Origin: Botryotinia globosa
Lineage: Eukaryota; Ascomycota; Leotiomycetes; Helotiales; Sclerotiniaceae
NCBI GenBank assembly: GCA_014898425.1
Contig: RCSZ01000007.1
Span: 1,302,001-1,366,000 of the forward strand
DNA: 64,000 bases
Direction of reading: 5' to 3'
This document shows positions 14,319 through 48,562 of this stretch, one piece after another (positions within the stretch are counted from its first letter, which is position 1; each line of letters opens with the position of its first letter). The notes below the pieces were generated by a model. That model did no database searches. It saw only the letters and a list, made by a program, of their open reading frames with translations, and had not been told where the DNA came from. The position numbers were made by a program, and so were the translations under genes.

Positions 14319-16995
14319 GTACCTACTACCTAGGTAGGTACCGATTCGCGATCGATTGATGAAATCCCATTGTGTGGATGAAAGAAACTGCGCGAGTAAT
14401 TTTCTCGCCTGGCCTTGATCTGTATCTCTTTCGAGCCGGATGCCTGGTCACTTGGTAAGGTTGGCATGGGTTTTCTTCCTGGGCATTCGGAGTTACATGC
14501 CAGAGTTTCCTGTGCGTTGAAACTTGAGAGACGGAATGCTACTCTGTGCAGGTAGCAGGATGAATTGTCCAGGGCCCTTGACTTTGATCTTTCAAGAATC
14601 AAGGGTCTCAGGGCTGAAATGACGGTCGGGGTAACGTTCTCTATCGGGAAGGGTCGCCGATGTGACTCTCTGGCTGTAGGTGGTTAACATTGAAGATATT
14701 GCATCACATGATTCACATCACATCATATCATATCACATACAGATATTGAAAGAGATTCGGAATCTTCGGTCGATGATAGATGGAAGTTGGAGATCGTTGG
14801 CTAAGAGGTCAAGAGATTTGAAAGAAAATCTGATCCGATGTCCGAGATATATAGTACCATTCATTAGCATGACATTGCAATCCCGTTGCAAATAAGATTC
14901 GAAGAAAGGATTGAGAATTTGAGATGAACTTTTCTCCACAAAGTCCACCCTTTTACCAGGACAGTACATACGTTTGTTTAACCCACCTTCAGGCTGAAAA
15001 ACGTGAATAGAATCAATAGAATCAATAGATGAACGGCCTAGAATTGTCAGTAGGGAAGTTCCTTGTCATATGATTTGTTACAAATGAAATTCAAAGGTTC
15101 TCGTGCCGAAAAGATGAGAATCCAGAACAATTGATTGGCATGATTGGAAAGTATGATTGATGATGATATTTTAATTGGAAACATTGGAGCCGTGCCAAGT
15201 ATGTCGGAGATATATGGTGGTTTTGCTTGCAGATGAGGACAGAGTTTTCCCTGTCATTGATGATTAGCAATCGAGAAAGTTGATAGAAACGGGTATTACA
15301 GTAGTCACCACTTCCAACTTCCAACTTCCAACTTACCCAAAGGCTAGAACGTTTTCCATCCGAAGAGATTTTCGTGACTATGGAGTTAGAGAACTCTCGG
15401 GGCATTTCTCATACTTGTCGATCCATCATCTGAGCACCCTCTCCATCTTCCCTCGACCTTTTTCCGGTGCTTCTTCTTCAGCTGGCTTCGTCGTTTGGCT
15501 GTTTCGGAAGCGTAGCAAATGTCATTATACTCGAGCACAAACGTCGCCGGTAGCTATTCGTCCCATCAACTAATCATTATACCTTCCGTCTAATTCCCAA
15601 AAGAGATGGCCATTCTCTCTAGTTTGAGTCCCTGCTCTGTCCTCAATGACTGACTGCAGCGGCATAGATGCAGGTACAGGTGCTTTGAAGCCATACAAGC
15701 CAGACAAGCCATACAAGCCATTAAGAACAGCCCTTGCATACGAGGTAGCCCTCATTTACTCACAGAAAGCGCTGATAATAAGGCTCTCGCACAGGAAAAA
15801 GAGGATACAGTATGCAGTATTCGATATTCTCTCGTGTTTCAAAAGCCTTCTTTATATCATTGCGCCAATCGTAAGCATTTCCGGTGCGTACCGCCAATTA
15901 GATCTCCGCACAGATCAATGCATACCCAGGTATAGCAGTGACGATGAATATGTAGTTCTTTTCCTTCCTTTCCTTTTGTATCTCTGGTTGTTCATCGCAT
16001 GAACTTTCTCTAAGCATCAAGAGGAGAGAGAGAATGAGTATCTCACCGCAGCATTAATCATCATAGACAATGTGTTATGCCATATAGCAATGAAATTATA
16101 TCATTGTTGCCTCTGACACGCGATCATACTCTTGTCAAGCAAAAGTCAATTATCCACTGATTACCATGCATCTAAGCGCAAAGTGGAGGAGAGGAGGAAT
16201 CCCCAAGAGCTAATGCTTATTATCATAACAAACGAAACAACAACCACGACACTACAGTCTGCGGCATTCACACAGACCTCGCCGACGCATGGAAAGTAAA
16301 CAAACCGTGAAGATTTGGTAAACACACGGATGAATTTCAAAATAGAACAATGATGATATTTATGATTGATATCTATTATTGATATGATGAATGTAAAACT
16401 CTTCCACCGTCTGTCTGTCTTTCCCCCTTCCCCTCGTGCTTTCTCCAATCTCATCTGATCTCATCCATCTCATCCATCTCATCCATCTCATCCATCTCAT
16501 CCATCTCATCCATCTCATCCATCTCATCCATCTCATCCATCTCATCCATCTCATCTGATCTGTTTTTCTAATCCGAAAGTGATATTCTTATATCGTATGC
16601 TTCATGCATTAAACAACATACATAATATTGATATTAAATTGAGATCACGAATCACCATCAGCCACCATTCTTCCAACAGATACAATCCGGGGCACTCAGG
16701 AATTCTGGAACATTGGATCAGATAGATACCGATACACAAAACATTGGAATTTCATCAACTCGATACAATCGCACACATATCTCGAGAAAATAAACTACCC
16801 CTCCTCCACCTTCCTCCAACAAAAACACACCTACTCGAAAACGATTCTCTCCACCGAACCCTCAAGCATTAGACGATCAATATCTGACATCCGCTGTACA
16901 ACATTCAAGCAAGCAATCCAGCAAGCCCTTTCCTTACCCATCCACCTTCCACCACAACGCCTCTGGTCCAACAGCCATCATCATCCGATCTCCCT
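14319..16995. other. Intergenic region with a CATCT/CATC repeat
   Basis: No gene recognised. Open frames at 14330-14602 and 15646-16002 lack coding character. The long minus frame with repeated RWM units is only the translated minisatellite at about 16448-16556. Confidence 0.5.
16448..16556. repeat. (CATCTCATC)n minisatellite
   Basis: About eleven near-perfect 9-bp units (CATCTCATC), bounded by TCTCATCTGATCT on both sides. Translates into spurious repeat ORFs. Confidence 0.95.
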
Positions 16996-18283
16996 ATTGG
17001 TCTCTCACACAAAACACACCCAATCTCCCCCCCAAATCAACAAGAACATCATCACATTATCCCGAAACCCGAAACCTACATACTCTCCTCCGCAGCAAAA
17101 TCCAAGCTCCATCCTCGCCGCCCGCACGTTTACGAGCGCTCAGCCCCATCCCATCCCATCCCGCCCAGCAAGACCGGCACGACAAACTTCGCACGTACAC
17201 TTACTTGCACTTGCCCTCGCACTTGCATTAAAAAACATTTGCTTCTTCCCGTCCACGCAACTCGCATGCCGGGTTTCTTGGCCGCTTTTTCCTTGTCTCT
17301 TAATTTAGGATCCGGATTTTATTGTTATTTGCTGGCTTTGCCCATCCAATCCTCTTTCTCGCTCTTCATTGATACCTCCTCGCAATACCTGTCATCCCGG
17401 TTCTTGGTATACCATAACGCCTTTATCAATATCAACATCGATATCAGTATCCATAGCTATATCCATAGCTATATCCATCGATCCTCCTACATCCATACTC
17501 ATTCTGCCCTAGGAGATAACCAAACACGCGATTCCGAGCTACTCACTGACCGACCGACCGACCGACCGACCGACCGACCGCCTAACGCGTGAGAAGAGCA
17601 CCCCCAAGAGAGGAAAAAGAAAAGAAAAGAAAAGAAAAGAAAAGAAAAGAAAAGAAACAAAATCAACAAGAAAAGACACTTGGTTTTTCCAAACCATTAT
17701 ATCGTCTTTGAAAACATCCCTCGAGTTTCACTCTTCCCTTCTCTCGCTTTTTTCTTTCTTTCTTTCTCTTTGAGTTTTCCTCCTCCTCCAAATTGGCCCC
17801 GTCGAGTATCTCGATTTCGATTTCGATTTCCAATCTTCAATTTCAATTTCATTTTCTCGATAGCTCCCGGATATATTTACACCACATATACATAGCAACC
17901 GCACTACCACAAACTCGAAACAAAAACACTCGACACTTTGTGGAGAACTTCATTCATTCATTCAGTCATTCAATCATTTACTATCGTATACATCCATTAT
18001 ACCACATTCATTTATTCATTTATTCACTCCTACCATCCTTCACTTCGCAAACCGAACCCCGAGAAAACCGAAGAAGACGTCACCGGTCCATCCATCCATT
18101 CATCCATTCCAATCCCCCAAAAATTGTTTTATTTTATTTTTTAATAATCTTTTCTTCTACTCCATCAAACCCTCAAACCATCAAATCAAAATCATCAAAC
18201 CCATCAAAACCAACCCTCCACCCCTTCATCTAGAACCCCCCGTCCACATCTCGCCAAACTTTCCAACCTTCCAATTCCAATTC

Positions 18284-18333
<50 letters not shown>

Positions 18334-20013
18334 TAAAACAAGGTCTCCATTCTCCCGCCCCCGGGAGTTAACGAAGCATAAGCATAAGCATCAAGCAGAA
18401 GGAAAGAAGAAGAAGAAGATTGATTACAAGAATCCACTTCCCAAAAAATTTACCCACCCCCTCAACTCGCCCCGCCTCGCCCTACGAACGAAACAAACCC
18501 GAGACGAAACGAGCATCCCTCCATTCCATCTCACCGGCCCCATCTAAGAATCTATCCCAATACCGGTAATCGTGCTTGAAAGAAAAAAAAGAAAAAAGCA
18601 GCTGCACACAGAGAGAGCCAGGCACATACAAAGTATATAACAAAGCATACAAAACCAAGCCAAGCCCCTCCCTCAAAAAAACAAACCAAAAAAAAAACTC
18701 TACTTGGTATAATCCCAGTAACCTTCCGCAAGGTTTCTTGGGACTAGGCTCGATATTGGAAAATCAATCCACAAAGTATTATATATTAATTATCGCAAGA
18801 AAAACTATAAGCAACAAATCCCGTCAACAAATCCCGTCAACCTGGTCATTAATAATTCTTTTGAAGATATAACTCCACTCGCTCATAATATCCACCCATA
18901 TTACTCTCTGCCACCCCGTCAGTCACGCAAATCCGAGCCTCCATCTCATGCGAATTCATTCCCTTTGCTTTCCCTAACAACGACTACAAGACGAGTTCGA
19001 AGACGACCAAAAAATAACAATCGCTTTACTTGTACAACCACACACGCACACACGCACGCTTTCTTTCCATCTCCCAAATTCCAAAATAGATCCCACGTTT
19101 TAACTTCCCATCAAAAAGCGAAAAGGATCCAAAATTAAATTCTACGAAGAACAAGAAGAAGAGTACGACATTGATTTGCTGCACCTACCGGTCTGCCTAC
19201 CCACCTGCATATCATACCATATCATCATCCTGCACGTTGCCGAAGCTCATCCAATCCATGCTTGCGGATTCTTCCAAGCTTACTGATTACTGCACTGCAA
19301 TATTTCCCACATACATACATACGATTCATCCACCTGGGATTGATTATCTACCAAGCGTCGCTCCTAGCAAACAGATCAGATACGTACATTACATCGTACA
19401 CAACACCCTTCCACAACCTCTCCCGACATTCTTTTAACGTAACCCAAAAACCTACATAACTATCCCGTGCTGCGTACTGCGTGGAATTTTCGGTACATTA
19501 TCTTCCTTTTAGATAATCTTTCCTATCCATCATATCAGATCATCGGCGAAGAAAAGAGACTGGGTGCGAAGAAACGAGGAAGCGAAAGCTGGCAACTAAA
19601 GTCAGACTTTGTGTAGCCTCGGAACCATCAGTCTGAGACAAGGTCTGGATACACAACATATCATCCCATACACTCCTTTTGGGTATTACGCCGTACGTAC
19701 AACCTCAGCCAAAGACTGGATGAATAGTACGTGAAGGACAAGAAACAGAAGGAAGCCTCCTGATTTCTGAATCCGATTCATCGTTCAATTATCTCGTCAG
19801 TCATTCTTTATTGAGAAGTAGTCATCTCTGTAAAAGTTGTGCGCCTTGTCATTCGTTTATATCATTAATTTCGACATCGCCTTCCGAACATCGCTTTTCA
19901 TCGCCATCTTTCCGGAGGCTTTATACTATTCGTTGCCGCACTTGAGACCAGTCATAATACGTATGCTATCATTTCAGTAACGCCACGGCTTCACTCATTC
20001 AATAAAAGACATC
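16996..20013 (+). promoter_or_regulatory. Long pyrimidine/CA-rich leader and promoter region of the membrane-protein gene
   Basis: About 3 kb of strongly strand-biased sequence (C, T and A rich on +, G poor) ahead of the ATG at 20014. It holds several simple repeats: (GACC)n near 17547-17580, (AAAAG)n near 17618-17655, TTCGAT repeats near 17815-17830 and (CAGGCA)n near 18285-18332. The bias is typical of long fungal 5' leaders of highly regulated genes. No upstream gene is recognised. Transcript start not visible. Confidence 0.4.
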
Positions 20014-27882: not shown

Positions 27883-29845
27883 GATGTTGAAATGCCTAAA
27901 AGTTTATCCAAAAGAGAACAAAATGCAAAATTTTGGATATATAGTTTTGAGTGGTCATTCACATTACGCGCTTTCGTTTCACCTCATTTGAAAATCTTTG
28001 GGAGTTTTCTTATAGTGATGCATTTATTCTTCGTAATTTTTTCTTCCTTCTCTGTATCAACAAATCAATCACACAAATTCACCATTTTTTCCGCTTCCAA
28101 AATGGCATAGGCGCAAAGTTCGGATTTCGGAGTCTTTTCAACGGTCGTATATGTGTATTCACGAGTTTTAGCTCGAAAATTAAGAAATTGGAATTGGATT
28201 GGTCGGTAATGAAATAATCCTTAAATTTTATTGGGCGTGGTGTAGTTATAAAAGTGTTTTTGGGGGGGTTTCTTTGGTTTTGGGGGGTTTGAGTCTTTTC
28301 GAAAATGGAGTTTTTGATGAGGGAATGAGGGAGGTGAAAGACGGGGGAGGGGGGGGAGGATGGGAGGATGTGGGGATAGGAGATAGGAGATAGGAGGCGA
28401 GGAAAAGAGCGATTTTAGTGTCTATGTTAGAGTCGAGTAGGAAATGGAAGCTGACTTTTTCTTCTTTCTATCTCTTGGAGATTTTGAATGAGATTTTGTG
28501 AATTTGTAATTTTGCCTTATTTTCGCAGGGCAAAGGGATATATCAAGATGGGAAACCTATCTAGATGGGTAGGTATAGGCAAGCGAGAGAAATTCATGGA
28601 TTTTTTTATAGAGATGTTAGGATTGGATTGTTTTGTTTTGAGTTTGTGATAGTAATAGTGATAGATACTCAGAATAGATATATTATAAATCTCTTTCTTT
28701 TTATATAATTAATAGGTTTTAACTAAGAGATATATTTAAATTGAACTGAATTGAGTGGAGTGGAGTGGAATGAATTGAGTGGATTGGGGAGGATATAATG
28801 TTGTGTGTGGGTAGTGAGAAGGTGTGGAATCTTATTGAGATGGTTTTGAGTTTGAGTTTGAGTTTGAGTTTTTGTGGGATGGTTAATAGATGATGGTTGA
28901 TAGTTGATAGTTGATGATGGATGATGAATGATGGATGATGGATGATGATAATAATAACCAAAGGGGATTAGGTGAACAGATCTAGTATTGATACTGGTTG
29001 TACTTATTTGCTTAGCTAGTTGGTTTTAAGTAGTGAGAATGAAGTTGGAGTTAGAATTGGATTGGATTGAGAGGAAGATGATGTATGATGTAAAGTAGCT
29101 TACGATATGGATATCATAACCGAATTGTCGAGATCGGAAGTATACTAGGGTTCATATTATAATGAATACCTATTAGATAAAATAAGTATCTCATTCTGAT
29201 TCTGATTCTGATATAGCGACCGAGTGCGAGTGGAGAGAGTTTTAGATTGGAGAAGATATCTTTTCGGGGATTTCAGACTTTTTGTTTTGACCATTGTGTG
29301 GGATGGGAGTTGGATATGGAGGATTGAAAGAAGATGGGAAGTGGATGGGTAAGAATGTGGGAAGTGTGTATTGTCTATGGAGATTGTGAGTTGGATGGAT
29401 AGTTTCTATGTGTGTGGATGGATATCTGAAGAATTATTATTCAGTTTGGTCTCTGGATGCAGAAAGGGAATTTGTTACACATGAGCCCCAGATTGCGATT
29501 TTTTCACTTCTTTTGAAAATTCGCGGGAGTTGGGGTGTGGTGATGTGATTTGATGTGATGACTTGGTATTATTCTTTCTAGTAAAGGAGGTTGGGAAAGA
29601 GCGAGGTGATGTACCTATGAATCTATAATCAGGGAAAGGGTAAATGGCGTCAGTCCCATAAGCAAAATATTGTTTTCCAGTAGGTACCTAAATACCTGTT
29701 ACTTCTTAAAGATTCCAAAAGGAAATGAAACTTCGCTGAATGATCGATGTGCATTTGTAAATTTGAATATTCACTTACTGTCCATTTCATTTTTATTGCT
29801 CTCGTACTAGATAGAGTATTACCAGGGGGGATACCAGTGTTCGTT
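27883..29845. other. Intergenic region, purine-rich on +
   Basis: Strongly G/A-rich tracts on + (for example GGGGGAGGGG near 28340, TTGAGT repeats near 28850-28870, GATGATGGA repeats near 28905-28950). No coding frames with support. Confidence 0.6.
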
Positions 29846-33597: not shown

Positions 33598-33766
33598 TCA
33601 CTCAGGTTTTCTCTCGATGTAACTGATGCCAATATAAAATCCTTGTACCCAGTCTCCATTTTTCCAACCCTTTTGACATTTGAACCGCTGGATTCGAACC
33701 GGACTTATCTCATCCTCAGACCCACAGTGATTACATAATTTTTGGCCTTGATTTCGAGGCAGGGGT
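33598..33766 (-). pseudogene. Terminal exon relic encoding a CxxC-type zinc-ribbon-like protein
   Basis: On the minus strand 33766-33598 reads continuously: PRNQGQKLCNHCGSEDEISP, then VRIQRFKCQKGWKNGDWVQG, FYIGISYIERKPE and a TGA stop. It has CxxC, a third Cys and a KGW/NGDW pair, and codon use like living genes. Immediately upstream the frame meets stop codons, and at about 33780 the DNA turns into a 1-kb AT-rich tract without coding potential. I read this as the surviving 3' end of a gene whose 5' part was lost or mutated. It could also be a small exon of a gene I cannot complete. Confidence 0.45.
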
Positions 33767-35124
33767 TTTACAAAGAATTATCACTATAAAATCCGAAACA
33801 ATTTGGTTCTAGTTTTAATATGAAAACCAACAATTCGTTATTTTTCGATTTTTCAATTAAAGATTATAAATCACTCAACAATTATATCATTTTGATATAG
33901 ATTCAATATATATAAATAGATTTTCTTATTATTTTGATATATTTTTTATTATAATAATTTTATTCAATTATATATATATATATTAAAAATATATATTTTT
34001 GAAAACCAATATTTCATTAAATTAAACACCTACCCTCTTTGAAATCCACTACTACCACTATTTATAATTAAAAGAAATATATTCTAAAAATCTTCTAATC
34101 AATCTAATTCCCATTATATATTTCAATCCTTTTTAAAAAATTAGGATTATTAATTTTGAAAAGATTGAATATTCCTAAACCTAAAAATCCATTTATTTCG
34201 AAACTATATACTTTAAACTTAAAGTATTTTAAAATTCAAATTGAAAAACAATTCAATCACTATCAATAATATAATCCCAACATTATTCTAATACTACTAA
34301 TACTATTGAAAAAACTATTAGCATATTCAACTCAATAAAGCAATTCGATTGATACTATTTTTATTATTAATAAAAATAATTTAACTGATTTGAAAAAAAA
34401 TCTTTTTAATTGAATCATATAATAACTACAACTTCAATCAATTCGATATAGATTCAAATAATAATATCAATTAAACTTTTTCAAATACTCTAATTAGTTT
34501 CTCAATAAATAATAATTGAAAAAATGAAATATATTATTGAAATACTCTAACCAAATAAATTCAATTCCTTATTAAAAATATAATCAAAAACTCTCAAACT
34601 CTCAAAAAGATAAATACCCCCTCAATCCCTAATTGATTCTAATTAATCAAAAAAAACTTAATCATTAATAAGCCACAACACCAAAAAGATCAAAATATTA
34701 TTTAGAATTCAATGAAATACATTTTATCAATGAAGAGAGTTTGAAAGTGAGATAAAACCGGACTCGATGTAGAATTAAAGATATCACGTGATCAACGTGA
34801 TCAACCTGTTTTATTCGTGTTTTATGGGTCCGTGCGCAGCGCAGGTAATATCCACGCGTTTGTTCTTTTCGAAAAGAAAGTTCACCTTCACTTTTACCTT
34901 TTTCGAACCTTGGGTTTCTTTTCCTGTTTTCGTGTTTAATTTTAGTTTCACAATCGCCTTTGAAATTTCTCAATGATGTCCAATCAAGAAGGCTGATCCA
35001 AAGTCTGGAAATGTCATCGCCACAAGACAAGGTTTGATGGTGAAGGAAAAGACATTGCATACCGTGACCGTAAACGGGAGAACGGAGGAGAAAGACTGGG
35101 AGGTGTCAGCTTGTGGAGCTCAAA
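33767..35124. other. AT-rich tract (RIP-like) and promoter of the AT-hook/Swi5 gene
   Basis: 33780-34690 is strongly AT-rich with short A/T runs and no ORF, resembling RIP-mutated repeat DNA but without identifiable ends. From 34730 to 35124 composition returns to normal and serves as the upstream region of the next gene. Confidence 0.6.
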
Positions 35125-38100
35125 ATGGATAGGGACTTGTCAGAAACGGATCTGGGGATGGATCTTATTGAACAGTGGGATTGGCAGCGGTTTAGGGAGG
35201 CCGAGAGTATGGAGTTGGAGGATGAAGAGGATAGTGCGATGCAGACGCAAATGAGCATTGAGAATGGGGCAAAGGTCAAGGAGACGACAAAGGATGTTGG
35301 TCGGATGGGAGAGGCTGGTGGGGTGGGTTCGAGAGGATCACAGAATTTACTTTTACCACAGTGTGATGGGCCGGCTGATGACGAGGATGTGATTGGGGAA
35401 AATGGATCGGTATCAAAAATTGGCATTGAAGATATTGATGTAGAATCGCGCCAAGCGATTTTGCTACAGTGCGATGACCAGGCTGTATCCATATCGAAAA
35501 TCGGGAGCGGAGATGTCGATGTGAGTTCTCGACGTGATGATACAGCAGCCTCAGATATACCCACGGAGGAAGGGTTGAACAAAAACGCTCCCGTGGCCCA
35601 AAAGCAAAAAATGGTTATGGAAGACGTTGGGCCGTACAAGGAAGAAAGTGGGGAAATATCGAAAAAACGCGATGGTACGGCAGATGAGCAAGAAGACCAA
35701 GAGATGAACCTAGCTGGCGATAAAAGCATTCCGGATATCCCTGGAAAGGAGATTGGCGATCAAGAATTGGTCAAAGTTGATGAACCAGCTCTACTCGAGG
35801 CAACTCGTAAGAATACTTCAGAGACAATCACAACAACTACTGAAATGACAATTGACTCTAGTCTCATCGCGGATGTCGATCCTTTTGGAGGAAACATGTA
35901 TTTTGAGGAACAAACCCACGACAAATCGGATGATAAGATTAAGGATTCGGGTTTAGACGGCGAAAATCCTGTGTCAGAAAGGGGCAACGGTATCTCGAAC
36001 TCGGAAAAATCTATCACCGAGATGAGAGCTGGGTCAGTAATTAATAAACGTATCGATCGAGAGAACAGTCAAATCGAAGCAATTCACGGCAATGTTCCAA
36101 CTTCGAACACCACTTATTCCGGAACGACTATTGATACTGAAATGATGGTCAACAAAGACGCAAATTCTGGGAGTGAAGATCATGTTACTGAAAGCATTAC
36201 CAGCGGGTTCCTGAGTAATGAAGATTTAAGGGACCTTGAAGGGAAGCCGAGCTCAATATCTATTCTGGAACAATCACCTGTTGAATTCGCGCCCGGGGAC
36301 GATTTTTCGGAAGGAGCCCCGTCAATAGATGAGAATATTACGAATTCTCCGAATACGGAAAATGTGTCAAATCCCACTCATATTCAAGATCTCAGAATCC
36401 CTAATCAACTACCTGTGGATAATGACAGCTTGGACGATGTTGAATTGCCTTCACTTTCCAGGTTGGAAGCTCCAGTACAGCCAAGACAAGTAGAAATTCC
36501 GGATAGCGATGCGATCACAGAATCAAGTCAACAATCTCTGCAAAAACTCAGCCATAATAGAAACACATTCCATAGCTCGGTGAAAAATGGAAAGAACGTG
36601 GAAATGGCCACAGGAGTCGATGCTGTCAGAGAAGAAAATGAGGACGCGGAGGCCGAAGATGCTATTAACTCGTTTGGGAGAGAATGTGCTACAAGCTCCA
36701 TCGACCCGAAGAAAAATCTCAAAGAGCTAGAAACCATGGGATCCGAAAGTTCACAGAATGGAATAGATGATTTTGAAGAGATCCGAGAGCCTTTTGAGCG
36801 TGCGCTGATTGGTTCTGCTCGGAAGGCTGAGGAAGATTCTAGAGCCGACGAAGATAATATAGATATTCAGCTGTCTACTACTCAAATATCACCGCAAAAA
36901 CCAACAAATAAGAGGGGTCGACCACCAGGAATCAGGAGATCTAAAATGGCCAACAGTCAAGCTGACGAAGAAAATATTGAAAGCAAAGCAATGCTTGCCG
37001 AAGCTGACCCAGACAAGTCAATGAGTGTGGAGGACGAGGAAGACTTGAGCGTAAGCAGCCCCGTGGCCGAGAGGAAGAAACGAGGACGACCATCTACTAG
37101 GAAGATTTCTGAATTATCTGTCGATGAACATGTCGACAAACTAGATGACGCAATGAAGCATATAGCTCCCACAGATGCCACAGCAGATGATTTCTCTCCA
37201 AGTAGCCCCGTACCTGAGAAGAGGAAACGAGGACGACCATCTGGTAGAAAGGTCTCTTTGTTATCTACTGATGAGCTTGCCGTGGAAGAAGATAAAGTAG
37301 CTGTGGGTCCACCAAAAAGATACGAAACCACTCTCATCAACAAATCAGCTGAGGCACATTCATCTCCCAGAAAACTCCCAGCAGACAAGGCGGATCCACG
37401 TAGCCTTACACCCGAAAAGAGAAAGCGCGGAAGGCCATCCGGGAGAAAAAATTCCACGTTATCCACTGTTACAAATGATGATGAAGATCTTGAGAGGGAG
37501 AAGGTTTTGATGGATGAGAATACTATAAATTCGAACATCGGTCGCAAATCAACAGATGAGCCAGCCGGGAATACTCCTATTAATTATATACAAGAGATGA
37601 AGGAAAAAGGAAGAACGACAGGCAGAAACCCTTCAAATTTGATTCCCGAGAAGAACTATCCCGAGGGATCAGACGGAGAATTTGATGAATTAGATGAAGT
37701 GACAGCAATAGCCCCAGTCGAGATTATTGAGAATCATGATGAGTCTAGAATCAACGATTCGATGGATGAAATGACTGCAAATTCATCTTCACCTGTCAAG
37801 CGAAAGAGAGGAAGACCAGCCGGTAGAAAGTCTTCGGACTTGAGTCCCGAGAAAGCCAACACCGAAGAAGTTGCCAGACGGGATTCGAGTAAGGTTTCCG
37901 TGATTATTCCCGGAGATATTGAAACGGAACAAGCTACGCCTAGTCACAAATCTACCGGAAAGCATATTGCTATCCCATCTTCATCCGTCAAGAGAAAGAG
38001 AGGAAGACCTGCAGGACGCAAATCTTCTGGGGTTGAAGCGGAACATACAGAAGCTGATGAGTTATCGTACGAGGCTTCACCATTGCCTCACAATGATGTT

Positions 38101-39958
38101 GACGTACAAGCCACCCCATCTGAGGAAGCAAATGATGATTCGGATGAAAGCTCGTCTATAAGGCCAAAAAACAGAGATCGACCTAGTCGAAAGACATCTG
38201 AACTGAATTCCGAGAAAACACACGCCAATGAAGCTGTCAACGAAAGCTCTGGAATTGTCATAACGGAAGAGACCTCAGAGAGCATCGCTAAGGAGTCTAT
38301 AGGCGATATTAATTCCACTGATGAACTAGCTGATTTCGATTCCTCACCAGTGAAGAGAAAGAGGGGGAGACCTGCTAGCCGAAAGGTGTCTCGACTAAGT
38401 CTGGAAAAGACAACTGTTGACGATGCTCCAGAGAAGACTCCAAATATCCCCCAAAAAGCTGTAACCGATGCTAGTGTCTGTGAGCCAGTATCTGAGACGC
38501 AATCAGTTGATGAGCCGCAAGATTTTGCTAAAACATCACCCGAAAAGAAAAAGAGAGGTAGACCGGTAAGTCGTAAGGTCTCCGCAGTTACTAATCCAAA
38601 CAAGGGGTCCGTTGAACCTCCAGAAGCAAGTCAAGTGGTCATTGCATTGCAAGAGACTGTAGCCGCAAGCAGTGATCAACCAGTTGTGATCAGTTCTTCT
38701 CCAGAGAAAAGAAAAAGAGGTAGACCTTCCAATCACAAATCCTCTAGTGTTAGCATTGCGAACAAGGATGTCATTGGTACTGTCGAAGCAAGTTCCAGCA
38801 ATGCTGCTACAAAAGCTTTCGACAAAGTTGTGGATGCCGATATCAACGAACCTGCACCTGATGCTAGCCTATCGACCAACGCTTCACCCGGGAAGAGAAA
38901 AAGAGGTCGACCGGCTCACAAAGCTTCTAGCTTGAATATCAGGAATGCTACCATGAAGGATATGTCGAATGATGTTATGAGTAGTGGTAAGAATGTCCCG
39001 ACCGAGATTGTCGACTCAGATGAGGAAGAAGATGCGCTACTCAATGAATCGCCGCCTTCAAAAAAGATTAAGCCAGAACCAAGGATGAGAGACCGACCAC
39101 CTGGAACTAAAGACTTGGGTGCCAGTACTGAAGACACAAAATCTGGCGAAGAAAGTTTGACAGAGGTATTGAGCGGTAGGGGCAGGGCTAAGAGTGGTGG
39201 AACAAATCAGGTGGTTACAAATATCGAGGAAAAGTCACCTGCATTAGAGAAGAAGAAACGGGGTCGGCCCTCCGCAGCCAAACCTAGGCGGATTAATAAT
39301 AGCGATTCTGATATTGCAGAGGAAGAGCAACAAATACCCGACAAATTCGAGCTTCGTAGCATTGAAACTGAGGACGTTGACGAAGAAGAAGAGGTTAATG
39401 ACCAAGAAGAGCCGGTCATGGAGAGAAAGAAAAGGGGAAGACCAAGCTTACTCAAGAACAAAGGGAAGCAGACTGCAAAAGCTTCAGAGCCCGTGGATCC
39501 AGATGCCACTATTAATGAGAAGACATCTACCGCTGGTGGCACTAAAAACAAAGCATCTGGAAGTCAAATATCAACATTGTCAAATACTCCCTCCTCCCAA
39601 CGCCAAGATGCGTTTTTAGCCGAGATCAAAGCGCTGAAACTTGTAAGTCTTAGTCTGCCTTTGATCCCATACTTTCTTTTTCCTTAAAGTGATCAACTAA
39701 CTCTGTCACTAGACATCAATCCAAACACGCAACGCGAATCTCAAAGCAGAAATTGCACAAAAACGAGAGAAAATACAGGAAATCACGGAAGGATTGGAGA
39801 AACCGGCGAAGCAAACAGTCAAGAGACATATTAGGTTGCTGCATGATTATAATGATATCAAGGATGTGGGACAGGGGCTGCTGGGCATGATTGCCGATAA
39901 TAGGGGTGTAAGGGTTGGGGAACTGTATGAGGAATTTGGGGTGGGCATTTCAGATTAG
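35125..39958 (+). CDS. AT-hook array protein with a C-terminal Swi5 domain
   Basis: Two exons: 35125-39642 and 39713-39958 (70-bp intron, donor GTAAGT), 1,587 residues. Residues 1-590 are acidic and low complexity. From about 595 to 1440 there are twelve canonical AT-hook cores (RGRP in contexts like KRKRGRPSGRK) plus three degenerate ones, spaced roughly 30-110 residues and often preceded by SSPV/SP and followed by RK(V/I)S. The last 80 residues read TSIQTRNANLKAEIAQKREK, then KRHIRLLHDYNDIKDVGQGL and NRGVRVGELYEEFGVGISD, the Swi5/Sae3 signature. Swi5, with Sfr1 or Mei5, stimulates Rad51/Dmc1 strand exchange; other Swi5 proteins can be as short as about 85 residues. AT-hooks bind the minor groove of AT-rich DNA. 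Upstream frame stops make the ATG at 35125 the first usable start. The fusion is supported by a continuous frame up to the intron. Confidence 0.85.
39713..39958 (+). other. Swi5 domain (terminal exon)
   Basis: Encodes an N-terminal coiled coil (AEIAQKREKIQEITEGLEK) followed by the conserved Swi5 core, with LLHDYNDIKDVGQGLLG corresponding to the LHEYNEIKDAGQALLG core in animal SWI5. The domain boundary falls almost exactly at the intron. Confidence 0.9.
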
Positions 39959-47351: not shown

Positions 47352-47427
47352 GGTTTAGATTTGATTAATAATAAGAGAGATAAAAGAAGAGATTAGAAAG
47401 AAAAGAGGAATTAGAAAAGGGAAGGGA

Positions 47428-48235
47428 TTAGATTTATTAGATTTATTAGATTTATTAGATTTATTAGATTTATTAGATTTATTAGATTTATTAGATTTAT
47501 TAGATTTATTAGATTTATTAGATTTATTAGATTTATTAGATTTATTAGATTTATTAGATTTATTAGATTTATTAGATTTATTAGATTTATTAGATTTATT
47601 AGATTTATTAGATTTATTAAAGAAAAAAAATAGAAAAAAAAATAGAAAAAAAATAGAAAAAAAATAGAAAAAAAATAGAAAAAAAATAGAAAAAAAATAG
47701 AAAAAAATAGAAAAAAAATAGAAAAAAATAGAAAAAAAATAGAAAATAGAAAAATAGAAAATAGAAAAATAGAAAATAGAAAAATAGAAAATAGAAAAAT
47801 AGAAAAATAGAAATTAGAAAAATAGAAATTAGAAAAAATTTAAAATGAGAATTAAAAAAGAATTTAAAAAGAAAAAAAGAATTTAAAAAGAAAAAAAAGA
47901 ATTTAAAAAAGAAAAAAAAGAATTAAAAAAATTAAAAAAAAGAATTAAAAGAAAAGAAAAAAAGAATTAGAAAAGAAAAAAGAATTAGAAAAGAATTAGA
48001 AAAAGAATTAGAAAAAGTTAGAAAAAGAATTAGAAAAAGAATTAGAAAAAGAATTAGAAAAAGAATTAGAAAAAGAATTAGAAAAAGAATTAGAAAAAGA
48101 ATTAGAAAAAGAATTAGAAAAAAATTAGAAAAAGAATTAGAAAAAGAATTAAAAAAGAATTATAAGGTTATAAGGGTTTGAGGTTAATTATATCTTAATA
48201 CTTTTATATAAGCTAAAAGCTAGAGGTTAATAAAG

Positions 48236-48284
<49 letters not shown>

Positions 48285-48365
48285 TATTATTATTATTATT
48301 ATTATTATATTATTATATTAGTATTATTATTATTATTATATATTATTATTATTATTATTATTATA

Positions 48366-48459
<94 letters not shown>

Positions 48460-48496
48460 TATTATTATTATTATATTATTAGTATTATTATTATTA

Positions 48497-48562
<66 letters not shown>
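47428..48562. repeat. 1.1-kb compound microsatellite block
   Basis: Four adjoining simple-repeat domains: (ATTTATTAG)n at 47428-47618; (AAAAAAATAG)n with shorter variants to about 47840; (GAATTAGAAAAA)n at about 47940-48160; and a nearly perfect (ATT)n block from 48236 to 48562. Each domain is a one-step derivative in A/T composition. Together they make a stretch with essentially no C. Confidence 0.95.

Follow-up and report, generated by a model that had tools for sequence, protein, structure and literature searches.

A Swi5 gene with a long N-terminal extension

Within a stretch of 64,000 nucleotides from contig RCSZ01000007.1 of Botryotinia globosa (Sclerotiniaceae, Helotiales, Leotiomycetes; hereafter the window), we analysed a gene whose product joins a long N-terminal extension, bearing an array of AT-hook cores, to a C-terminal Swi5 domain. 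When the open frames were joined across the intron (window 35125-39642 plus 39713-39958; Table 1), the resulting 1587-residue product was found to be identical, letter for letter, to the deposited protein EAF00_005577 (P0017 among the relatives described below). The frame, whose first ATG lies at 35125, is still open beyond 39642, and two database proteins (P0038 and P0016) diverge from the common sequence at the intron codon, as expected of unspliced read-through. The conserved helix start AEIKALKL, just ahead of the Swi5 match, is encoded by exon 1, and the first methionine of exon 2 (residue 1565) falls inside the Swi5 domain, so that no whole Swi5 domain would arise from an ATG of exon 2's own. 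The initial annotation had described a frame unbroken up to a phase-0 intron and followed by a Swi5 domain at the C-terminal end, all within one predicted protein; this was borne out at the level of sequence, and relatives likewise have it as a single gene model. No second copy of exon 1 was found in the genome (next best E 0.3), and a search of a plasmid collection gave no match, which is uninformative for a fungal gene.

The Swi5 assignment, for which the annotation had proposed a check with the PF07061 hidden Markov model, passed it clearly: exon 2 scored 103.4 bits against a cut-off of 22.1 (E 7.1e-30) and the full-length product 97.5 bits, with the match (residues 1510-1584) lying entirely in exon 2. 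The closest solved chain is Swi5 of Schizosaccharomyces pombe (3viq_B, E 1.8e-11, aligned over exon 2 residues 11-79). Little was gained from predicting the structure or searching for its fold: the AlphaFold model is all-helical (predicted local distance difference test 84.8, predicted template-modelling score 0.53), and a fold search with it placed 3viq_D on top with a probability of 0.98, but with E 0.019 and a root-mean-square deviation of 15.6. At E 1 no Pfam domain other than Swi5 was detected in the product, so that no Sfr1/Swi2 C-terminal homology was encountered. The C-terminal F-G-V is retained, and with it the aromatic/aliphatic pair F1581/V1583; the equivalent residues of mouse Swi5, F83 and L85, are required for functional interaction with RAD51 (PMC5573924; here and below, the literature is cited for the passages covered of each source). 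Since a six-frame search of the 45.7-Mb assembly returned no other Swi5 domain, EAF00_005577 is, as far as domain models can tell, the only recognised Swi5 of B. globosa, i.e. the small subunit of the Swi5-Sfr1 (Sae3-Mei5) complex. The N-terminal extension (rich in charge and poor in order-promoting residues) is apparently disordered, as judged from its residue composition.

The AT-hook array and its conservation

The product holds 12 exact RGRP cores, set within 15 units spaced 60.0 +/- 4.8 residues apart, 12 of which have an intact core; the degenerate ones read RTTG at residue 830 (unit 5), RDRP at residue 1017 (unit 8) and RDRP at residue 1322 (unit 13). A chance origin of the hooks was ruled out, as 2000 residue shuffles of the first 1506 residues gave a mean of 0.02 RGRP (maximum 2) in place of the 12 present. 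Over 271 hooks in 25 proteins (i.e. the hook-bearing relatives introduced below) the unit consensus is roughly S-x-P-E-K-[RK]-K-RGRP-[SA]-[GS]-R-K-x-S, and K or R is found in 96% of the hooks at position -1 and in 90% at -2. Furthermore, the pattern [ST]Px[KR] occurs in the 9 residues preceding 107 of the 271 hooks, as compared to 713 of 32,369 (2.2%) other 9-mers. An HP1-binding stretch of the form PxVx[LMVI], as in Swi2, was not found in the product.

At the DNA level the repeats are spaced by about 190 nt or double that, which points to tandem duplication, and the 12 intact hooks are spelt in 11 different ways over their 12 nt, which is more in keeping with selection acting on the protein than with DNA copied recently. 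Across the 22 Sclerotiniaceae-type rows the mean majority fraction rises from linkers (0.65) and N-terminus (0.69) through hook flanks (0.75) to hook cores (0.87, an average that includes two RDRP units) and the Swi5 domain (0.91). Residue by residue, conservation is higher in the cores than for identical letters in the linkers (G 0.92 against 0.52, P 0.87 against 0.63, R 0.82 against 0.66, K 0.86 against 0.70), with permutation p values of at most 0.0076 that stay at or below 0.017 against the 9 rows outside Botrytis, in tests that take positions as independent while the sequences are related.

Table 1. Features of the Swi5 gene (positions in the window; for the last row, in the genome). Fractions give the number of the 22 Sclerotiniaceae-type rows, the window's own included, with RGRP at that unit.
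Feature	Position	Strand	Remarks
Exon 1	35125..39642	+	residues 1-1506: N-terminal extension, AT-hook array, start of Swi5 helix; open frame, first ATG, match to P0017
Conserved linear motif LPSL...VEIPDSDAITESS	36445..36528	+	residues 441-468; common to hookless Swi5 relatives
AT-hook array	36877..39486	+	15 units of ~60 residues, residues 585-1454
Hook 1 RGRP	36913..36924	+	
Hook 2 RGRP	37081..37092	+	
Hook 3 RGRP	37228..37239	+	
Hook 4 RGRP	37426..37437	+	
Unit 5, degenerate KGRTTG	37612..37623	+	4/22
Hook 6 RGRP	37807..37818	+	
Hook 7 RGRP	37999..38010	+	21/22
Unit 8, degenerate RDRP	38173..38184	+	14/22
Hook 9 RGRP	38362..38373	+	
Hook 10 RGRP	38554..38565	+	
Hook 11 RGRP	38716..38727	+	
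Hook 12 RGRP	38902..38913	+	
Unit 13, degenerate RDRP	39088..39099	+	19/22
Hook 14 RGRP	39259..39270	+	21/22
Hook 15 RGRP	39433..39444	+	21/22
Intron	39643..39712	+	70 nt, GT-AG, phase 0, GTAAGT...CTAAC...CACTAG
Exon 2	39713..39958	+	Swi5 domain and stop TAG; PF07061 7.1e-30, 3viq_B 1.8e-11
F1581-G-V1583	39935..39943	+	equivalents of mouse Swi5 C-terminal F83, L85
Sfr1 candidate	L009 1282-1793 + 1851 onward (contig C3:411826 onward)		

Distribution and origin of the array

Relatives were gathered with the Swi5 part as probe in three length-tiled searches (71-2292 residues) that yielded 14, 26 and 20 proteins; as such a search detects only proteins sharing exact 5-residue words, classes of fungi other than Leotiomycetes are under-sampled. 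Hooks were present in all 22 rows of Sclerotiniaceae type and in all 3 Rutstroemia rows (7-14 RGRP each), the former comprising P0038 and 21 rows from Botrytis/Botryotinia, Sclerotinia, Stromatinia, Monilinia and Ciborinia, genera that (Botryotinia apart) we take to belong to that family. None of the 15 other long relatives (P0003-P0016 and P0039; 331-1060 residues) has a single RGRP, which rules out the hooks as a trait of all Leotiomycetes, and none was found in 20 short rows (73-221 residues), many of which resemble fragments or unspliced reads. The presence of the array in 25 of 25 Sclerotiniaceae-type and Rutstroemia rows shows that it is not a gene-model accident of one genome. The comparison of orthologue lengths that the annotation had called for thus came out in favour of the long fusion, which recurs in the 22 rows at 1425-1598 residues, the array being confined among the retrieved proteins to these two groups; at the level of sequence, neither a Swi5 exon with its own start nor orthologues split into two genes came to light. 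As read from these gene models, the fusion architecture is real, conserved and unusual within the known family. Separately, four hookless Swi5 frames (P0046, P0048, P0055 and P0056) read through an apparent second intron before PAAETV, an intron that the Botryotinia gene is without.

Ahead of the array lies a conserved motif (pattern [LF]PxL...I[PL]DS) that is found in 34 of the 40 long rows, i.e. in 24 of 25 hook-bearing ones (before the array) and in 10 of 15 hookless ones, with 0.04 expected after shuffling, a figure that is no blind test as the pattern was composed after viewing the sequences. As hookless relatives have the motif as well, the N-terminal extension would seem to predate the array, which probably arose within a Swi5 that was extended beforehand, in the part between motif and Swi5 domain. 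When the hooks were masked and the Swi5 domain taken out, the B. globosa protein still matched Rutstroemia P0041 at E 2.7e-9 over residues 351-561 (whole comparison: E 3e-47), as against a best E of 0.043 for five hookless proteins and E 5.0, no match and E 7.1 for three shuffles of P0041; four of the five hookless proteins (not P0012) aligned at or across the LPxL...IPDS stretch, none significantly. A single origin of the array in the lineage of Rutstroemia and the Sclerotiniaceae-type fungi appears likely. A 91-column Swi5 tree, a quick search with approximate likelihood ratio supports (SH-aLRT) only and 23 of 39 inner branches open, parts Rutstroemia from the rest and needs two changes for the array. 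Moreover, among the 15 hookless long rows, that of Phialocephala subalpina (P0012) has in its N-terminal extension a SAP domain (residues 325-360, 3.6e-14). As SAP domains bind DNA, a DNA-binding module may have been gained in that extension a second time, independently.

Proposed role, competing readings and genomic context

Swi5 of S. pombe and Sae3 of Saccharomyces cerevisiae resemble the B. globosa protein in the C-terminal PF07061 domain, with 3viq_B as nearest solved relative, and the B. globosa genome encodes a putative partner, the Sfr1 candidate described below; they set the scale of the difference, as S. pombe Swi5 has 85 residues (PMC5573924), about the length that the annotation had given as the short end for other Swi5/Sae3 proteins, versus 1587 here. 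Human SWI5, at 235 residues far shorter than the B. globosa protein, is described as having an N-terminal extension that most other species lack (PMC5573924). A functional parallel is S. pombe Swi2, a Swi5-linked protein that sets the site of recombination; its two N-terminal AT-hooks bind double-stranded DNA and are required for it to localise at recombination enhancers (PMC10164574). Swi2 differs in having only two hooks, in its HP1 (Swi6)-binding site and Sfr1-like C-terminus, and in being a separate polypeptide, whereas the B. globosa hooks sit on Swi5 itself. The multi-AT-hook proteins D1 of Drosophila (10 hooks) and HMGA1 of mouse (3 hooks) bundle the satellite DNA of separate chromosomes (PMC5957525), phosphorylation beside the hooks changes HMGA binding (PMC11354804), and Neurospora CHAP, of the HCHC complex, is an AT-hook protein of fungal heterochromatin that partners with HP1, CDP-2 and the deacetylase HDA-1 (PMC13297926). 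The literature passages covered hold no mention of AT-hooks on a Swi5, and in the titles and abstract beginnings of the open-licence papers listed no description of a Swi5 plus AT-hook array architecture was found. In fission yeast and mouse, according to these sources, Swi5 has fewer than 90 residues and relies on its partners for anchoring, while the lineage described here bears a long, conserved array on Swi5; this would make it a natural and easily mutated system for asking what follows when a recombinase accessory factor is tethered to duplex DNA. To our knowledge, neither D1 nor HMGA1 has a recombination domain, nor does CHAP have a Swi5 domain.

We consider it probable that the Swi5 domain pairs with Sfr1 and that the array tethers the complex to double-stranded DNA. 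On this reading the Swi5 domain would stimulate Rad51/Dmc1 together with Sfr1 as in the yeasts, while the flexible array would grip the minor groove at many weak sites simultaneously, holding the complex on duplex DNA, yet mobile; the complex would thereby be kept on chromatin beside recombinase filaments, with some preference for A/T-rich stretches. The anchoring that in S. pombe falls to partners (the AT-hooks of Swi2 and the disordered N-terminus of Sfr1, which interacts with DNA (PMC5573924) and, according to one proposal, anchors the complex to Rad51 (PMC7093153)) would here be placed on Swi5. More speculatively, a cyclin-dependent kinase might act on the S/T-P-x-K sites ahead of many hooks and alter the grip during the cell cycle, as described for HMGA. 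In S. pombe, phosphomimetic changes in Sfr1 impair Rad51 binding (PMC10366545).

The partners that such a role presupposes were looked for in the assembly. RAD51 lies on contig C8 (515.5 bits, cut-off 478), a gene in pieces on contig C14 matches the DMC1 model better than that of RAD51 (both below cut-off), and contig C16 holds a further Rad51-domain gene. The genome search with the Mei5/Sfr1 family returned nothing at E 0.001 and one weak place at E 0.198, a 263-residue Sfr1 candidate for which the PDB holds, at E 0.1 or better, a single match, to S. pombe Sfr1 (E 1e-5). Its N-terminal part is short (about 95 residues ahead of the coil) and contains a repeated stretch, PFRSPFKTPFKSP.

Several points weigh against the tether. 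Pfam AT_hook, a model of 13 positions only, was not detected when exon 1 was put through hmmscan at E 1, and in a six-frame genome search gave one match in this gene, at 15.9 bits below the cut-off of 17.4, which five other places in the genome exceed; as the cut-off is not reached, the assignment of the hooks rests on the RGRP core and its basic flanks, and the product is better described, on its motifs, as carrying AT-hook cores than as a member of Pfam AT_hook. The twelve-fold array of the initial annotation is confirmed in its 12 cores and refined to 15 units, but falls short on the family model. Single hooks are gained and lost (8-14 RGRP per Sclerotiniaceae-type row), and outside Botrytis the [ST]-P-x-[KR] site is less marked, S/T-P-x-K preceding none of the 8 hooks of P0034 and 1 hook per Rutstroemia row. 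As exon 1, the Sfr1 candidate reaches 16.6 bits with Pfam Mei5 (cut-off 28), and its joined product gave nothing at E 0.01. In S. pombe, DNA binding by Swi5-Sfr1 has been argued to be unimportant for potentiating Rad51 (PMC10366545), and in vitro gel shifts showed the Swi2 hooks to bind DNA of 60, 72 and 75% AT alike (PMC10164574). The sign of any phosphorylation effect may go either way, because phosphorylation near the HMGA1 hooks weakens binding to naked DNA but tightened chromatin binding in one in vivo study (PMC11354804). The annotation's proposal of a DNA tether for a Rad51/Dmc1 accessory factor remains reasonable, with Swi2 as precedent, while its targeting to AT-rich DNA is not favoured by the Swi2 gel shifts.

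The regular 60-residue repeat, a hook number that varies between 7 and 14, the decay of individual hooks and the quick divergence of linkers would all suit a disordered linker that lengthened near-neutrally through tandem duplication and took the hooks along with it; we regard this as improbable, since hook cores are more conserved than linkers, at least 7 hooks occur in 25 of 25 rows, and the 11 spellings among 12 hooks speak against it. The conservation pattern bears also on another possibility, unlikely although deserving consideration, namely that the basic hook clusters serve nuclear import, contact with the acidic surface of Rad51, RNA binding or a general chromatin affinity without base preference: the hooks are preceded by K/R as given above, those of Swi2 were without preference among the DNAs tried (PMC10164574), Rad51 has a conserved acidic patch used by auxiliary factors (PMC7837696), and AT-hooks have been reported to contact RNA and proteins (PMC11354804). 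Yet it is the core G and P that stand out most in conservation against the same letters elsewhere, which import or charge alone would not need, and nuclear import would need one basic cluster only.

That the fusion is a gene-model artefact (i.e. two genes, or a separate short Swi5 transcript) we deem exceedingly improbable. Swi5 is indeed short elsewhere (85 residues in S. pombe and 89 in mouse, PMC5573924; 117-129 residues in four short rows, from Candelina, Trapelia, Aspergillus and Penicillium), and many hookless relatives have a methionine directly before the AELKA helix, a possible internal start. This methionine is absent in the B. globosa gene, where exon 2 has none before residue 1565; the last upstream methionine shifts position among the 18 of 25 hook-bearing rows that the search pattern used for this comparison caught, the pre-array motif is common to hookless Swi5 proteins, and the length is maintained in the 22 rows. 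An internal-start or two-gene model was accordingly held unlikely.

An extension of the tether reading, which we rate as doubtful, would have Swi5 act as a D1/HMGA-like multivalent tether that clusters or coats A/T-rich heterochromatin derived from repeat-induced point mutation (RIP) together with centromeric blocks and, by bringing Swi5-Sfr1 to them, determines whether Rad51/Dmc1 is active in these blocks or excluded from them; any link of the array to RIP or heterochromatin is speculative. If true, hook copy number would evolve with the amount of AT-rich DNA per genome, and as this varies among Botrytis species (6.5-27% of the genome, PMC10971195) the link is open to comparison. The initial annotation had taken RIP-degraded heterochromatin 6 kb away as a clue. 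The block in question runs from window 45801 to past the window end (contig C7:1411200), i.e. over 63 kb at about 15% GC, and lies just beyond the middle of the 2.58-Mb contig; its RIP indices are borderline (TA/AT 1.0; (CA+TG)/(AC+GT) 1.06), and it may represent either a centromere or RIPed transposons. For B. cinerea and B. fabae, low-GC regions lacking annotated genes are predicted centromeres, and other AT-rich regions hold remains of RIPed transposons (PMC10971195). In 7 of 14 fixed 10-kb stretches elsewhere, at least 500 bp lay under 28% GC (19,400 of 140,000 bases, 14%), and since AT-rich stretches are this common and the protein acts in trans, the 6-kb distance says little. The nearby AT-rich DNA was thus rejected as a functional clue, with the reservation that only 1 of the 14 stretches was AT-rich throughout, so that blocks of this length are rarer.

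Some further observations concern the motif and the surroundings of the gene. A strict DNA pattern for EIPDS[DE]-[A/D/E] has three matches genome-wide. One is in this Swi5, and another lies close to the C-terminus of a RecA-fold ATPase (L038 910-1641, C12:246817) that resembles a Rad51 paralogue and scores below the Pfam cut-offs. The third falls in the exon before the FAN1 nuclease domains (L039 1173-1778 minus, C14:1908263; FAN1_TPR 5e-11, PDB FAN1 3e-18). Each has the look of a repair protein, but they are only three, and a permuted control pattern gave 2 matches. A second EIPDS pattern gave two more matches on C10, both doubtful (one in a 167-residue frame opposite a 296-residue frame, one with no listed 60-residue frame). 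Near the edge of the AT-rich block, window 47427-48562 contains a perfect 9-bp array, ATTAGATTT (21 copies), followed by a 12/22/24-bp A-rich array and some 110 ATT units. Immediately ahead of the gene (window 33601-34900) there is a short AT-rich stretch (20% GC over 34000-34760) that, with a RIP substrate index of 1.48, does not look RIPed. Window 28000-29100 is G-rich, with short simple repeats and no 200-residue frame, and GC skew is strong both at 28001-29000 (+0.56) and at 16001-19000 (-0.36 to -0.43).

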